Source of the DNA: a candidate division SR1 bacterium
Lineage (GTDB): Bacteria; Patescibacteriota; Gracilibacteria; Absconditabacterales; Absconditicoccaceae
Direction of reading: 5' to 3'
Length of the DNA stretch: 10,656 nucleotides
Assembly (NCBI GenBank): GCA_002746475.1
Contig: PDOX01000045.1
Span: 1-10,656, forward strand
Shown here: piece by piece, positions 1 through 10,174 of the stretch
Layout of the letters: each line of letters starts with the position of its first letter
How positions within the stretch are numbered: the first letter of the stretch is position 1
The notes under the pieces: model-generated
The model's database searches: none
Seen by the model: only the letters and a program-made list of their open reading frames with translations
What the model was told of the DNA's origin: nothing
Made by a program: the position numbers and the translations under genes

Positions 1-284
1 GGGTCTTCATAGCATACTTCGTTTACTAATTGAGGGAATGTTGTTGGCTTATATCAATAATTTTTATTTGTTCCAAAATGATTTTTATCTTCAAAAGTAT
101 ATAGTTTTGCATTAAGTTTTTTTATATTTACTAATCAATTTTCATAACTTATTTCATGATCATCTTTTGAATGAAACATAACAAAATCAGTGCAATTCTT
201 TTTTATCTTTTCATAATTATATCATTTTTCATCATAAAATCCTCCTATCTTATGACTTTCTTTTTTGGGAGTTCCATCTTGTTT
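1..284 (-). pseudogene. C-terminal part of second RBBP9/YdeN-like hydrolase domain, frameshifted from the upstream fusion gene, cut by window edge
   Basis: This frame is open from the TAG at 285-287 to the window edge: 94 codons with UGA read as Gly at three places. It reads as the C-terminal half of an RBBP9/YdeN serine hydrolase. A GGFYDEKGYNYEKIKKN segment matches the family's usual F-Y-D/N ... F-E-K-I-K-K-N region. FVMFHSKDDHEISYENG holds the probable catalytic Asp, and FEDKNHFG the probable catalytic His. It lies one base out of phase (+1) with the fusion gene ending at 250, which supplies the nucleophile half (GQSRGG). The two frames overlap only at 250-287, so the break lies there. It may be a true frameshift mutation, a consensus error or recoding; the sequence alone cannot decide. 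No independent start is evident, so I treat it as the displaced 3' end of the upstream gene. The real C-terminus is outside the window. Confidence 0.7.
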
Positions 285-1518
285 CTAACCAACGAAGAAT
301 TGCCATACCTCATCTTGATTGTCCAATTATTATTGTATTTTCATCTGGTTGTAATTTATCTATTTCTTCAAGTCGCTCATTTATTTGAGGATTATCTGCA
401 TTTGGTAAGTCAGGAATAGTAATATTATATCATAGATTTTCTAGCTGTTCTTTTACTCGTGGATAGTATTTCATTTTAGAATGATCATACTTCCCATGAA
501 GGAGAATAATTCTTGGTTTATCTGCTAATGCATCGGCTTGTGTGATGGGAATGTTTTTATCTTTGGGATCGTAGATTACGATTGATTCTTCTTGCAGATT
601 TCAGAGGATTTTTTCTTGATTGAAATTAAAATCAAAACTTTGGAAATATTCTCTCTCCATTGTTAGATTATTAGTGAGAAATCCTGCCACAGCGATATAT
701 TGTTTGATTTTGGTATCAAGTTTTTGTAAAGTATTCAACCCAATAATACTCCCCAAACTATGCCCAAGTATGATTGTATTTTCATCAAAACTGTAGTTGT
801 CCAGTACATATTGCGTTTGCTCTGGAATGCTTGGATTATTAGTGTTTGGGAGATTGAGAACTGTGGTTTTGATTCAGAGTTTTTCTGTTTTTTGTTTGAG
901 GTTTTTGAAGAAATTATGTTCTTCTGAACTGTTGTAGCCGTGAAGGATGAGGAGATTTGGTTTAATATCATCAAATCCCTCTTTTACTTCTCCCTTTATC
1001 AAGGGAGATACTCCCTCGTGAGCTTCCCCCTTGTTAAAGGGGGACTGAGGGGGATTTGTTTGCGAAGAAGATGCTTCTATTTTTTTCCCCACTGTCTTGA
1101 TAATATTTTCTTTGAGTTGCATTCCTCTTCCTGATTTTTGGTCAGGATTGGTTACTACTCCCACGACATCAAATCTTTTATCATTATGTAATTCTTCCAA
1201 AAAAGGGACTCCGATTGGAGCTGATGAGAAAAATACAACTTTGTAATATTCTGGGTCATATTTTATATGATGGGATGGGGTACAACTGGTAATTCTGTTC
1301 ATAACTTTTCCTATTCAATGGATAAAACCGTATCTTTTGAGCGTTCTGACGCTATATTCACTACAATGAGGATAATGTGCACAGACTGTTCATTTCAGTA
1401 CGGATGAGAAGATCCCTTTGTCAGGAGAGATGGTGTATTGGTAGATCTTGATAAAAAAAATACTGATGTTGGCGAGGAAGATATCAAGATATTTGAGAAG
1501 TGTTTTTATGTGGTGCAT
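250..1518 (-). CDS. yidD: Fusion protein: YidD + truncated formyltransferase-like N-terminal domain + tandem RBBP9/YdeN-like serine hydrolases
   Basis: The 422-residue frame has UGA-Gly at residues 43, 68, 215, 306, 363 and 403. Residues 1-92 are YidD, the small membrane-associated factor that helps YidC insert proteins: IYQYTISP, the Cys-bearing CAHYPHCSEYSVRTLKRYG and SCTPSHHIKYDPEYY follow the family pattern. Residues 93-147 resemble the start of methionyl-tRNA formyltransferase (VVFFSSAPIGVPFLEEL, VVGVVTNPD, GRGM), but the catalytic Asn/His/Asp half and the C-terminal domain are missing. Residues 154-183 are encoded by a palindromic repeat. Residues 187-334 form an RBBP9/YdeN alpha/beta hydrolase with LLILHGYNS and nucleophile GHSLG (Ser254), but no recognisable C-terminal His segment. 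A second hydrolase starts at PRIILLHGKYD (335), has nucleophile GQSRGG (Ser401), then hits TAA; its C-terminal half continues in the +1 frame. The start is ATG at 1518 after an in-frame TAA, with no Shine-Dalgarno. Domain calls are firm; the fusion's biological role is unknown. Confidence 0.75.
973..1057 (-). repeat. Palindromic repeat, family A, inside the fusion gene
   Basis: This 85-bp element has outer inverted ends (AAATCCC...GGGATTT) enclosing two hairpins: CCCCCTTTAACAAGGGGG and TCTCCCTTGATAAAGGGAGA on the minus strand. The second hairpin is identical over 20 bp to one at 4953-4972, so the two are copies of one family in opposite orientation. Here the element is read as protein (about residues 154-183 of the fusion gene; the frame reads NPPQSPFNKGE and VSPLIKGEVKEG). 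It lies exactly between the formyltransferase-like segment and the first hydrolase domain. Confidence 0.8.
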
Positions 1519-2463: not shown

Positions 2464-3312
2464 TTACTCTATATCCAGTGTCATATGAAAATATGGGACT
2501 TTTATTCAATATACTGTAAAAATCTCTTGGATAGCTTTTCTCAATGCGGTTTTCGTAGAAAATCCTGTTGATGAAATTTTTGGATCTACCAAGAAAAATA
2601 TTTTTAATACGATTCCTTTTTGGTCAAATTTACTCACAATTACACTCGTAAATTCTTTTCTCACAATATTTTCATTTTTATTTATTGTGGTAATAAGTAA
2701 TTGCTTTACCTGGTCAAGATGTACATGACGAGGAACAGAAATTTCCATCTCTCCCCTAATATATTTTTCAGATTTTATTGTTTTAAATGGACTTTTTGCT
2801 AACTCTGTATTAGGAATTATCGTCCTCCTCCTATCAAAGGTTTTTATCACGGTGTATCTCAGGGTGATATCTTCTACGACTCCAACTATTTGGATCGATC
2901 CTTGTATTTCTATCAGGTCTCCAATAGTAAATTTTTTATTACTAATGATGACTAGTCCTGAAATCATATTTGCTATGATATTTTCTAAGGAAAATGCAAA
3001 TCATAACCCAATTCCTCACATGAGAATTGCAACATCAATCCCCAAAATTTGGAGCATAATCAAAAAATTGAATATCATCAGCAAACTATAAACAATACTT
3101 GCAATGAGATTACTCACTTTTTGAATATCATTATGATTCCCTAAATTATTTTGTTCTATTTTTTTCTTTGACCATGCGACTACTCTTCTAATTACGAGAT
3201 AGACTAATACAAAGACAAAAATTGCAATTACAATTTTTTTTACGATCACAAGTCCGTTATTTGATAATTGCTGTATCATATAGAGTTGGAGATTTTCCCA
3301 TAGTGTATGCAT
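2464..3312 (-). CDS. MscS-family small-conductance mechanosensitive channel (copy 1)
   Basis: The protein has 282 residues with UGA-Gly at 99, 104 and 269. MscS channels open under membrane tension and release solutes during hypo-osmotic shock. There are hydrophobic spans at about 22-42 and 66-98, then the pore helix MGGIGLGFAFSLENIIANMI (98-117), in which two glycines are UGA. The beta domain follows with SNKKFTIGDLIEIQG and the RRRTIIPNTELAKSPFKT segment (typical I-P-N), then the alpha/beta cytoplasmic domain. The frame does not end at the TGA at 2506: reading through adds IKVPYFHMTLDIE, which matches the family's usual I-P-F/Y-P-type tail, before TAA. The start ATG 3312 follows an in-frame TAG closely. 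It lies 26 bp downstream of a second MscS gene, so the pair is probably one operon. Confidence 0.92.
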
Positions 3313-3338: not shown

Positions 3339-4262
3339 TTAACTACTAGGATTAGTGGTCTGTGTGAATGCTGTTTGTAATTTTTTCTTGCTCTGTTCAT
3401 CTTCAAAGGTAATTGTTGTCTGATTATAGGGTATTTCTATTCCATGCTGATTAAATACTTCAAAGATTTTTTCCTGGATGGTTCAAATTGCCATTTCTCC
3501 TACAATTCCGCATTTTGGATCAAAAAAGAACAGACATTTTAATTCAATTGCACTATCTGCTAGGTTCAGTACATATGCTTTTGTACTTGTTTTTTCTTTT
3601 ACAAAATCAAAACTATTGATCGTTGCTACGACCAATTCGATAGCTTTTGCTACATCAGATTTATAATGAATACCAATGATCGTATCCAATCTCACCAAAT
3701 CTTCTGAACTAAATGTCTTGATCGGAACCGTGATGAGTGTAATATTAGGGATAATAACTTGTCTGAGATCTAATGTCCTGATAACAGTATATCTAATACT
3801 AATCTCTTCAATTCTTCCAAAATAGGTTTTATCCATCTTGATCTCGATAATATCTCAGATTCTAAACTCTTTGGTATACAAAATCATGATTCCAGCAAAC
3901 ATATTTCCTAGTAATTCTTTGAAAGCCAATCATAATCAGAAAGATACTCATCATACGAGCAATCATAAATTTATTCCCATAACATCAAAACCGACAAAGA
4001 CAGCAACCAACAGCATAATATAAAATACCACACTAGAAATGAGATTTGCTATCTTTTTTGTACTTTCACGATTATTATCATTAGCATTTCTCATCATTGC
4101 TTTTTTTACAAGGGTAGCGATAATTTTTGCAAAGATAAAAAACAAGATCATCACTGCTATTCATCATACAATTTTTATAGCCCATGCAATATATGGGTTA
4201 TCAACGATAGTATTAGCCCATGATGTCGCTGTTTCCATTCCATCAGTTGTTGTTGGATTCAT
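3339..4262 (-). CDS. MscS-family mechanosensitive channel (copy 2)
   Basis: The protein has 307 residues with nine UGA-Gly codons (33, 34, 100, 104, 105, 109, 111, 136, 260). The N-terminal tail is hydrophilic. Hydrophobic segments lie at about 24-52 and 72-98, followed by the glycine-rich pore helix (about 97-124, GLLVGGVSFGLGLAFKELLG), where five glycines are UGA-encoded. The beta domain contains FRIGDIIEI, an RYTVIRTLDLRQVIIPN segment and the family's I-P-N motif. The C-terminal domain ends with HGIEIPYNQTTITFEDE, the usual MscS tail, plus about 20 extra polar residues. The start ATG 4262 is the only reasonable one and has no Shine-Dalgarno. The first gene of the pair, it lies 26 bp ahead of copy 1. 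The two proteins are clearly diverged from each other, so this is an old duplication rather than a recent one. Confidence 0.92.
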
Positions 4263-5117: not shown

Positions 5118-7121
5118 ATGATAGATTTTGAAAAATATAGCAAAGAGATTGTCGCACTTCATCCTGAATTTACGGAAGAAGAAATTTTTGAGCTTTGTGA
5201 AGAATATGTGAGTAAATTTAATAGAAAAACAAAAGAGGAGAGTAAGATTAGAAGTTTAGAGAAGTGGTTGAAGAAAGAGTTTATGTGGAACACCTCACCC
5301 CAAACCCCTCAGTCCCGCAAAGCGGGACAGCTCCCCTCCAAGGGGAGCCCTGTTCCCCCCTCGGAGGGGGGATACCCGAGCGAAGCGAGGGAGGGGGGTC
5401 TAAGTAAAATTCCAAAAAAATACTTCCAAGGAAATGGGAAGCATCGTGTTGGTGATTGGATTTTGCGTATTCCAGAACTCGATAAGCAACTCGGGAAGAC
5501 GATACTTTTTGAAGGGACGGAATTACATATCAAGGCAGGGGAAAAGATTGCTTTGATTGGGAAAAATGGGGCTGGGAAGTCCACCTTATTGAAAATTATT
5601 ATTGGGAAAGAAGAATTGCCAATTGGAGAAATTACGCTGGCAAAAAATACGAAGATCGGGTTTTTATCACAAGATTTATTTTGGGAGTCTAGACATCGTA
5701 AGGTATGGGAAGAGATGCTCACTACCCTCCCCCAAGTGACCGCTACCCACAATAGATTACTCGAAATTGATAGCTTACTGACAAATAAAAATACTACCAC
5801 ACAGGCTAAAAACACCCCAGAAGATGCCGTTGCACTTGTTGAGGAACAAGCTGAGCTGATTGAATGGATGGTACATAATGATGGGTATCAAAAATATGCT
5901 TTGCAAGTAGAGATTTTGAAATATTTTGGATTTAGCAAAGAGCAGGAACAGTTTGAAGTTGGACAGCTTTCTGGATGAGAACAGACCAAACTCCAAATCG
6001 CGAAATTTTTGCTCCAAGAGGTGGATTTTTTGATTCTTGATGAGCCGACCAATCACCTAGATATTGAGGGGATTATGTTTTTAGAACAGTTTTGTAAACT
6101 CTGGGGAAAGACGCTGATTTGTATCAGTCATGATAAAACGTTTTTGAATAAAGTCTTTGATCAAGTACTGGAAATTAGCAATAAGAAATTAGTGAAATAT
6201 CAGGGGAATTATGATGCTTTTGTAGAGCAAAAAATCAAAAACTATGAGCTTCAACACAAAAATTATGTCGCACAACAGAAATATCTCAAACAGCAAAACA
6301 GATTTATTGAAAGATTTAGATACAAAGATAGTAAGGCAAAACAAGTGCAAAGCAGAATAAAATTATTAGATAAACTAGAAAAAATTGAAGAACCAGAAAT
6401 GCTGGCAACAGAACACAAGATTCATTTCAGTTTGGATGAAAGATTGCCAAATTTGGTGATGAAATATAGTGATTTGTCGATCGGGTATGAGCAAGGCAAT
6501 CCGCTGATTGTCTGTCCGAAAACGATTGAGATCACCAAAGATATGAAGATCGGGATTGTGGGAAGAAATGGAATTGGGAAAACCACACTTGTGAATACGA
6601 TTTTATGAGATCTGGAAGCATTGGCTGGGGAAATTTTTATCCATCCTAATATGAAAATTGGATCCTATTCGCAGACGGCTGATGAACTTGATCGTGAAAA
6701 AAGCATTATTGATGAGATTGTTGGACCAAATATTTCGCATAAAGATGCAAGGACTTTGCTTGGAAGTTTGTTGATCAGTAATGAAAAAATGGATCAAAAA
6801 ATTGGAACGCTGTCAGGAGGAGAAAGAGCAAAAGTTGCACTAACCAAGATGTTGCTCAGTAAACCACATATCATCGTGATGGACGAACCGACCAACCACC
6901 TTGATATTGACTCAAAAGAGGTGATTAAATTAATGTTGGAAGAATTTAACGGGGTGAGTATTATCGTTTCCCACGATAGGGATTTCTTAGCCAGTGTTTC
7001 AAATAGATTATGGGTATTACATAACAAACAGCTAGAAATTTTTCATAATACAGAAAAAGGTTTTGATATGCTAGAAAAAATGCTTGGGAAGGAGAAAAGT
7101 GAGAGTGTATTTGAGAGGTAA
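5118..7121 (+). CDS. ABC-F family ATPase (ribosome-associated, duplicated ABC domains) with in-frame repeat insertion
   Basis: The protein has 667 residues with UGA-Gly at 287 and 497. ABC-F proteins are soluble twin ATPases that act on the ribosome in translation factor or antibiotic-protection roles; they have no membrane domain, and none is seen here. Residues 1-57 are a charged helical extension. Residues 58-95 are encoded by a palindromic repeat. ABC1 has Walker A GKNGAGKST (148-156), signature LSGGEQ (284-289, second Gly is UGA) and Walker B LILDEPTNHLD (Asp308, Glu309). A charged linker of about 80 residues follows (KNYVAQQKYLKQQNRFIERF). ABC2 has Walker A GRNGIGKTT (482-490), signature LSGGER (565-570, ordinary Gly codons), Walker B VMDEPTNHLD (Asp589, Glu590) and the switch SHDRDF. 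The start ATG 5118 has no Shine-Dalgarno. It is the only plus-strand gene and converges on the lipoprotein gene 6 bp away. The subfamily (Uup, EttA, resistance type) cannot be settled by eye. Confidence 0.95.
5291..5401 (+). repeat. Palindromic repeat, family B, inserted in frame in the ABC-F gene
   Basis: This GC-rich element of 111 bp (exactly 37 codons) contains stems GTCCCGCAAAGCGGGAC, GCTCCCCTCCAAGGGGAGC and CCCCCCTCGGAGGGGGG, and ends GGAGGGGGGTCT like the intergenic copy at 1587-1678. It has no stop in the gene's frame and adds a Pro/Ser/Gly-rich segment (TPQSRKAGQLPSKGS, YPSEAREGG) between the N-terminal helix and ABC1. Confidence 0.85.
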
Positions 7122-9598: not shown

Positions 9599-10174
9599 TT
9601 AAATTGATATATAATTAAAATTACTTAATACAAGGAATGTTGTTCTGTTAAAAGAACTATCTTCTATATTTTTAAACATAATAGGAATATTATATATTTT
9701 AGCAGCAACATGGGAACAAATTGCTGCAGAATTTTTATCTTTGAGAGACATTTTTGCAGCTATTGATGTTGATGTTGTTGGAACAAAATTCAATCATGAA
9801 AATAGATTCTTATCTAAAAATCTTTTACATTGTTCATAAGCACTAGGATGAGAATAAATACTTTTTATATTTTCAATATTTTTTACCTTAGATACAAAAC
9901 AATGATGTATATTCATATCTATTTCAGTGACAATATTTAGATTGTATTTATCCAGACAATCATGTGTGATCTTTATAGGACCTACAATTTCATTTTCACT
10001 TGGAACAACACCAAAGTCTGCTTCTTTATTGTTTAAAGTTTTAAAAACATCTTCAATTGAATTTAAAGATAAATAAAGAAAATTAATAGAATCAAAATGA
10101 TTTTTTACTACTTGATGAGTATAACTCCCTTCAGGCCCCAAAAAAGCTACCTTTTTTTTAATATTTTTCTCCAT
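9599..10174 (-). CDS. pheA: Prephenate dehydratase-domain protein without ACT domain
   Basis: The protein has 191 residues with one UGA-Gly (127). Prephenate dehydratase converts prephenate to phenylpyruvate in phenylalanine synthesis. The whole catalytic domain is present: VAFLGPEGSYTHQ (9-21), FGVVPSENEIVGPI (54-67), IHHCFVS (89-95), YSHPSAYEQC (107-116), VPTTSTSIAAK (131-141) and AAICSHVAAKIY (150-161). The catalytic TRF motif reads T178-T179-F180 (NRTTF), so the essential Thr is kept but the usual Arg is Thr. There is no chorismate mutase domain and no C-terminal ACT domain, so Phe feedback control is not expected. It starts at ATG 10174, which gives the family's normal beginning, and ends 2 bp before the SDR gene. 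The family is firm. The reaction is less so: bacilysin-type prephenate decarboxylases (BacA) are homologous and also lie next to SDR genes. Confidence 0.88.

Follow-up and report, generated by a model that had tools for sequence, protein, structure and literature searches.

Palindromic elements of Rickettsia lie in frame inside conserved protein genes, and in a tested case the host enzyme was still active (PMC2229807). In CPR bacteria, rRNA insertions with homing endonucleases have been described (PMC11270868). More generally, domain insertions, in which one domain interrupts another, are known (PMC13114784). That an aminoacyl-tRNA synthetase can carry an additional small enzyme has been noticed already, since the NCBIfam model NF040702 (ileS_w_GNAT) takes its name from an IleRS that also has an acetyltransferase domain.

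Here we analyze a gene in which a YidD domain, the start of a methionyl-tRNA formyltransferase (Fmt) and RBBP9/YdeN-type hydrolases are on one chain. Fmt formylates the initiator tRNA, and YidD helps in membrane insertion. Both the Fmt (TIGR00460) and the YidD (TIGR00278) domains are recognised, and relatives of the gene have a complete Fmt with its Asn-His-Asp set. What differs from the known Fmt and YidD is that the two share a chain and that one Fmt loop is broken by whole domains. The hydrolase inserts match the profiles of the RBBP9/YdeN family (PF06821; structures 1uxo and 2qs9), most of them with Ser-Asp-His, and differ from the known members in being lodged within other enzymes. In our literature searches, with subscription papers largely outside their reach, neither a fusion of YidD with Fmt nor a hydrolase lodged in the Fmt or LeuRS of these bacteria was the topic of any title or abstract, and the words formyl, YidD, fusion and fused are absent from the Vampirococcus lugosii paper (PMC8080830).

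Results

The frame in the window

The term window denotes all of the DNA that was analyzed, a complete contig of 10,656 nucleotides from a source genome of 561 kb in 102 contigs that is 65.6% complete. By source family we mean the family of this genome (candidate division SR1 / Absconditicoccaceae lineage). With code 25, in which TGA is glycine, the minus strand from 1518 to 250 is a single open frame containing six TGA codons, and with table 11 the same frame falls apart. The preliminary description had joined YidD, an Fmt start and RBBP9/YdeN hydrolases in one frame, and the 422-residue translation and its Pfam and TIGR matches bear this out (Table 1). The parts had been named correctly, and a repeat is present at the junction.

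Table 1. Parts of the open frame and of the second hydrolase in the window
Feature	Position	Strand	Evidence
Entire code-25 open frame (422 residues) with YidD, Fmt start, repeat peptide, w1 and first part of w2	250..1518	-	translation
YidD domain, residues 17-89	1252..1470	-	Pfam PF01809 59.4 bits; TIGR00278 58.1 bits
Methionyl-tRNA formyltransferase (Fmt) start, residues 93-146, ending at the loop that takes inserts	1081..1242	-	TIGR00460 29.5 bits; relatives align over YidD and Fmt start
Peptide read in frame from palindromic repeats, about residues 152-184, first insert in the loop	967..1065	-	repeat families D3, D5, I9; bounds by eye
Hydrolase w1 of RBBP9/YdeN type (residues 185-335), with Ser and Asp, without the His-bearing end	514..966	-	PF06821 at 189-333; profile A1 179.3 bits
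Hydrolase w2, first part, main frame, with Ser motif	280..519	-	profile A1 94.7 bits; tblastn P0002 60.5% identity over 513-256
Frame change and gap within w2	242..256	-	22 residues of P0002 face 13 bases
w2 remainder, other frame (-2), reaching the contig end	3..242	-	tblastn P0002 62.5% identity; translation

The YidD scores exceed their cut-offs of 27 bits (PF01809) and 40 bits (TIGR00278). The Fmt start is weak in Pfam (12.3 bits) and is matched by TIGR00460 with an E value of 3.9e-7, at a score below the whole-protein cut-off of 201.5 bits; over YidD and this Fmt start, genomes of the source family are 36-61% identical to the window. Hydrolase unit w1 scores 30.6 bits against PF06821 (cut-off 22), and a second unit of this family, w2, begins near residue 334. 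Although the frame stops at 250, w2 does not end there; it continues in another frame with a stretch that resembles residues 261-340 of the database relative P0002. Between the two w2 stretches, residues 239-260 of P0002 stand opposite only 13 window bases, so that w2 contains a frame change and a gap.

Past the position that matches the contig end of the window, P0002 returns to Fmt sequence within a few residues, and in the window allele this return is expected just beyond base 1. Since w2 reaches the contig end, the contig stops exactly where the presence of a catalytic half would show. Of Fmt, the window protein contains no more than the start; the catalytic core with Asn-His-Asp is absent from it, the contig ending before that core. 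Whether Fmt is "without its catalytic half", as had been claimed, is thus unreadable from a contig that ends inside the second hydrolase; loss of this half as a design feature is rejected, given the contig end and the resumption of Fmt in relatives. A complete fmt elsewhere in the source genome, which the preliminary description had proposed to look for, did not turn up, as the full-length Fmt query matched the window locus only in this 65.6% complete assembly. Most likely the missing half is just beyond the contig end or the copy has decayed, the latter being possible because no second half was found in the genome.

A complete Ser-Asp-His set is likewise absent from the main frame of the window, since w1 is without its His-bearing end and w2 has only the Ser part. 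The two hydrolases appear damaged, and w2 may either follow w1 or be nested in it. In the window we are probably dealing with a copy, damaged or truncated by the contig end, of a structure that recurs. Elsewhere in the window we noticed, by eye, two adjacent minus-strand ORFs (2464-3312 and 3339-4262) that resemble small mechanosensitive channels, and a prephenate dehydratase-like ORF (9599-10174, minus strand) that is unexpected if the organism makes few amino acids.

The fusion in the source family

Among 279 genomes searched in the wider class, 49 are from the source family, and the YidD-Fmt query matches 45 of these, the source genome included, with four giving no match. In 33 a single code-25 frame spans YidD and Fmt and there is no large insert (one of these, G023, starts within YidD at a contig end); eight have a large insert and four are partial or weak. 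For the 41 genomes that cover the site, window included, the split is therefore 33 without a large insert and eight with one. YidD fused to a full-length Fmt is the usual state in the source family. The preliminary description had recommended a search for its domain order in related genomes, and the architecture does recur in the family and in database relatives. It had also raised the prospect of separate yidD, fmt and hydrolase genes in relatives; here the outcome is mixed, yidD and fmt being fused in the family and most members lacking the hydrolase. A joining of YidD to Fmt through repeats is rejected because the two are fused across the family even where there is no large insert.

The database relatives are labeled as candidate division SR1 or Absconditabacterales; Ca. 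Absconditicoccus praedator (P0054) and Ca. Vampirococcus lugosii (P0031) are among them. Outside the source family, the matches listed begin at fusion residue 64 or later, near the Fmt start. The exceptions among them are three genomes (G210, G258, G124) in which the match extends back to residue 32 across stop codons; this suggests neighboring genes, and the arrangement is probably one of adjacent yidD and fmt, possibly a forerunner of the fusion. A contig scan for YidD gave four distant matches. Several of the database proteins are named solely YidD or solely formyltransferase. This matters for annotation, as does the recoding of TGA, which conceals such proteins.

One loop of Fmt as the insertion site

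We aligned the 120 listed database proteins (of 154 hits, a set biased towards hydrolase carriers), the window and seven genome loci to an uninserted reference. All internal inserts of at least 20 residues are at reference positions 144-149, with P0040 as the sole exception (20 residues, at 335). The loop lies past ..ENIIKxxAKK and ahead of ..IxTPxKLNPEK. The window (P0001) and G001 are without a second Fmt half, so the aligner placed their hydrolases against Fmt columns; their loops were read by eye and are not among the aligned insert positions. In the 103 uninserted rows, block 141-150 has 2.69 bits per column, and of all ten-column blocks only 361-370 and 371-380 exceed it in variability.

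Large inserts (about 100 residues or more) occupy this loop in eight of the 41 source-family genomes that cover it. Besides the window, these hold a hydrolase (G007, G042, G057, G063), a hydrolase cut by the contig end (G001), a DUF559 domain (G013) or a domain of about 110 residues that has no assigned family (G048). Fmt resumes in the same frame past the insert in all six that have both sides present. In the database set, 18 of the 120 proteins have a large loop insert: 13 hydrolases, four nuclease-like DUF559 domains (PF04480) and one unassigned. The inserts of P0040 and G048 gave no Pfam match at E 0.01 and, scanned alone, none above chance. The architecture recurs on long contigs of other assemblies (G013, 291,858 bases; P0019, 288,401; P0004, 136,072; P0008, 117,354; G042, 108,461; G057, 93,116), and a one-off chimera confined to the source genome is therefore rejected. 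Inspection by eye of six inserts and the window revealed no terminal repeats, target duplications or mobility gene, and a transposon signature at the junctions was discarded. Because the loop repeatedly takes whole unrelated enzymes, the window gene is one allele of a rapidly changing insertion hot spot and not a one-off fusion. The frame first reported is real and unusual; the recurring structure is the more interesting finding.

Palindromic repeats at the loop

In the window, a peptide of the repeat families D3, D5 and I9 lies between Fmt and w1. Related peptides are at the same Fmt loop in P0006, P0011, P0028 and P0025, where the repeat peptide is the loop's only insert, and none was seen by eye at the hydrolase inserts of G007, G042, G057 and G063. 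A palindrome related to the loop repeat has 18 exact sites in the source genome and, at up to three mismatches, 83 hits against three for a control, both strands of the near-palindrome being counted. The palindrome CTCCCCTCCAAGGGGAG is exact at window positions 5331-5347 and 1615-1631. An ABC-F-like ORF (5118-7121, plus strand, by eye) has a repeat-like in-frame peptide at about 5290-5400, where the first of these two sites lies. Only the loop repeat peptide is a short, interspersed palindromic repeat read in frame; the enzyme inserts are not. Repeat-driven joining, which had been suggested for the whole gene, falls for YidD and Fmt and is possible for the insertion of the hydrolase here, because the repeat peptide sits between Fmt and w1 and occurs alone in some relatives.

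State of hosts and inserts

The catalytic Asn-His-Asp set, at positions that we take from E. coli Fmt, is kept in all 22 inserted Fmt rows. Five inserted Fmt proteins were scanned: PF00551 is above its cut-off in each of them and PF02911 in four, the exception being P0016 (18.1 against 21.1). For TIGR00460, P0052 exceeds the cut-off and P0012 is slightly under it (194.9 against 201.5). On the insert side, all of the 18 hydrolases in Fmt retain Ser-Asp-His except two, w1 and w2 of the window, which leaves 16 with the full set. The 38 inserts in other hosts all keep Ser and His, and 31 keep Asp; the seven in which the Asp column is not Asp may be misaligned. Hosts and passengers thus look functional. 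An AlphaFold2 model of the inserted relative P0012 has a mean pLDDT of 87.8 and a pTM of 0.76. Its 11 top PDB matches are methionyl-tRNA formyltransferases, and no serine hydrolase structure is among the 50 matches listed. The assignment of the inserts to the YdeN/RBBP9 fold rests on sequence profiles (YdeN 1uxo, 112.8 bits; RBBP9 2qs9, 80.3 bits).

Turnover and origins of the inserts

Insert presence is scattered over an Fmt tree that was built without the loop and has 120 rows, 22 of them insert carriers. Left out of it were the window, G001, G013 (the same as P0052) and rows with fewer than 250 filled columns except P0003. On this tree, 20 changes are needed for the 22 carriers, compared with a mean of 20.6 for shuffled labels, and the well supported branches alone force at least 13. 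A first tree that included the window and G001 (122 rows, 24 carriers) had 21 changes; the two were misaligned, which makes their places in it meaningless, and the tree was rebuilt without them. The Fmt and first-version trees are quick ones that carry long-branch warnings.

Comparison of close pairs, with W and G treated as equal since some database translations give TGA as Trp, shows that insert content changes fast between near-identical Fmts. P0013, with a hydrolase, and P0090, with no insert, have Fmts that are 95% identical, and so do P0012, with a hydrolase, and P0066, with DUF559. Between P0002 and P0003 the inserts (79%) are more alike than the hosts (63%), and P0019 compared with P0012 and G042 has hosts at 84% and inserts at 43%. 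In the main hydrolase clade, host and insert identities covary (Mantel r 0.68, p 0.0025, 11 rows). This correlation, which is compatible both with long co-residence plus losses and with exchange, speaks against a pure cassette model: much of the pattern must come from inserts that stay with their hosts and are at times lost, or from alleles that are exchanged whole.

A tree of 89 hydrolase domains splits the Fmt inserts into four groups. Two are clades, one of 11 rows (support 92) and one of five rows that includes w2 (support 99); P0016 groups with a UvrB insert and two free-standing proteins; and w1 is within a set of 25 rows (support 99). This set consists entirely of inserts (18 in LeuRS, four in UvrA, one each in SecA and UvrC, and w1). 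A database search found two free-standing-looking relatives of it (P0123 and P0124, 50-51% identity), so we dropped the strong form of the claim that this clade exists solely as inserts. Free-standing relatives of the hydrolases, about 190 residues long, are frequent in these genomes as well.

The same hydrolase family in other core genes

Hydrolases of this family lie in frame in UvrA (G008, G017, G050, G051), in both UvrB and UvrC of G031, in SecA of G048, in IleRS of G168 and in LeuRS of many Patescibacteria. Family models confirmed UvrA, UvrB, UvrC, SecA, IleRS and the nine LeuRS scanned; the other LeuRS were identified by BLAST. A hydrolase search of the phylum matched 206 of 379 genomes. 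Frames of at least 860 residues account for 36 of the best 150 rows, one of them inflated by a masked stretch, and the 20 of these 36 that were read (including G066) are all LeuRS, the commonest host among the long-frame rows read. An apparent giant gene in G585 was rejected because its frame of 24,995 residues passes through a masked stretch (L151).

Across 29 LeuRS rows, selected for carrying a hydrolase, large inserts are at about reference positions 232-266, 394 and 465. The insert at 394 is NUDIX in five scanned rows (L138, L139, L142, L143, L152) and also in L159, whereas L161 has HAD there and L084 a hydrolase. Inserts in the region 232-266 are hydrolases, except for PD-(D/E)XK in L084 and an unassigned domain in L121. 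Each of the LeuRS rows just named has at least two inserted domains. In UvrB of G031 (L079) a histidine phosphatase adjoins the hydrolase, and IleRS of G168 (L126) has these two domains at separate sites. A control search outside Patescibacteria matched 66 of 369 genomes. Only five rows exceeded 60 bits, in frames of 195-329 residues, and three weaker ones (27-30 bits) were in frames of 623, 961 and 7013 residues; with so few strong rows, the control says little on insertion beyond Patescibacteria.

The Pfam tables of 18 scanned proteins contained no Hint (self-splicing) domain and, inside the inserts, no LAGLIDADG, HNH or other homing family. The GIY-YIG match in L078 is UvrC's own domain and not an insert. 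An intein reading was rejected since these 18 proteins have no splicing domain.

Discussion

We suggest, with a probability of about 0.7, that the YidD-Fmt fusion of this family has one hypervariable loop that acts as a hot spot, where whole domains enter in frame and are exchanged between alleles. The sequences establish that YidD and Fmt are fused, that diverse inserts share one site, that Fmt is intact on both sides in relatives, that active-site residues are kept and that turnover is rapid. Most likely the inserts are self-folding passenger enzymes that are swapped between alleles by recombination in the conserved flanks. The inserted domains would fold separately and leave Fmt working. 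New inserts would arrive by rare illegitimate recombination, sometimes near palindromic repeats and perhaps aided by them, and inserted and uninserted alleles would then spread or be erased by recombination in the flanks, e.g., after DNA uptake. Lodging in an important core gene may shield the passenger from loss. As a tentative extension, which we hold at well below even odds, Patescibacteria could have a class of mobile in-frame modules: small complete enzymes, unspliced, in permissive loops, that are swapped like cassettes and kept since their loss would break a needed gene. Its modules would be the RBBP9-like hydrolase, NUDIX, HAD, histidine phosphatase, DUF559 and PD-(D/E)XK, and its hosts Fmt, LeuRS, IleRS, UvrA/B/C and SecA.

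An old insertion, inherited with its host and lost many times with no exchange between alleles, would account for the correlated identities in the main clade (Mantel r 0.68), and the change counts on the trees cannot separate gain from loss. We nevertheless regard it as unlikely. This is because four hydrolase lineages and DUF559 share a single site, the hosts of P0012 and P0066 are 95% alike and carry unrelated inserts, the P0002-P0003 inserts are closer than their hosts and those of P0019 and P0012/G042 far less alike (43%) than theirs (84%); many precise losses would also need a mechanism of their own. A joining of unrelated pieces by repeats during assembly or binning could be suspected from a contig that stops within w2, the frame change and gap in w2, a w1 without an end and a window palindrome with 18 exact genome sites. 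It may apply to the last 250-500 bases of the window; as an account of the architecture it is improbable, given the recurrence on long contigs of other assemblies.

A functional role for the hydrolase has also to be weighed. Human RBBP9 is an aminopeptidase that requires a free alpha-amine and probably cuts amide, ester or thioester bonds to hydrophobic residues (PMC8866121). Because it frees single amino acids from free-amine substrates (PMC8866121), a hydrolase that sits in LeuRS, IleRS or Fmt could remove the amino acid from mischarged or excess aminoacyl-tRNA right next to the enzyme dealing with that tRNA. LeuRS being the commonest host read and the catalytic residues being kept in 16 of 18 Fmt inserts agree with such a partnership. 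We consider it quite unlikely, since UvrA, UvrB, UvrC and SecA, which carry the same family, do not fit it, DUF559 and unassigned domains occupy the same Fmt site, near-identical Fmts lack the hydrolase, and the Asp column is not Asp in seven of the 38 inserts of other hosts, where misalignment could contribute. The preliminary description had imagined a membrane-tethered hydrolase, anchored by YidD and acting where proteins insert. Apart from the presence of YidD and hydrolases on one chain, the evidence points away from this: the fusion is without a large insert in 33 of 41 genomes, the insert is replaced by unrelated domains at the same site, and the same hydrolase family is found in hosts that have no YidD (LeuRS, UvrA, SecA). 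We judge it highly improbable.

The exchange of passenger domains at a hot spot, which we favor, is natural domain insertion caught in the act, with alleles that are empty, have one enzyme or have another in hosts that are 95% identical. Thus, the origin of domain insertions, their cost and the question of selfishness or usefulness become testable.

The Rickettsia palindromic elements are similar in that selfish-looking sequence is translated within conserved genes. They are repeats of 105-146 bases, whereas here whole enzymes of 100-200 residues are inserted and a repeat peptide is present only sometimes (PMC2229807). The rRNA insertions of CPR bacteria occur in the same wider bacterial group, in essential genes and at set sites; they are introns, spread by LAGLIDADG enzymes and removed from the RNA, whereas the inserts here are protein-coding and kept in the product, with no LAGLIDADG seen (PMC11270868). 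Inteins share the in-frame insert, the essential protein and the set site, but the insert here is an ordinary enzyme, with no splicing domain in the Pfam tables. Finally, the domain insertions described (PMC13114784; NF040702) are stable family architectures, whereas in the present case even hosts that are almost identical differ in which of several unrelated inserts they carry.
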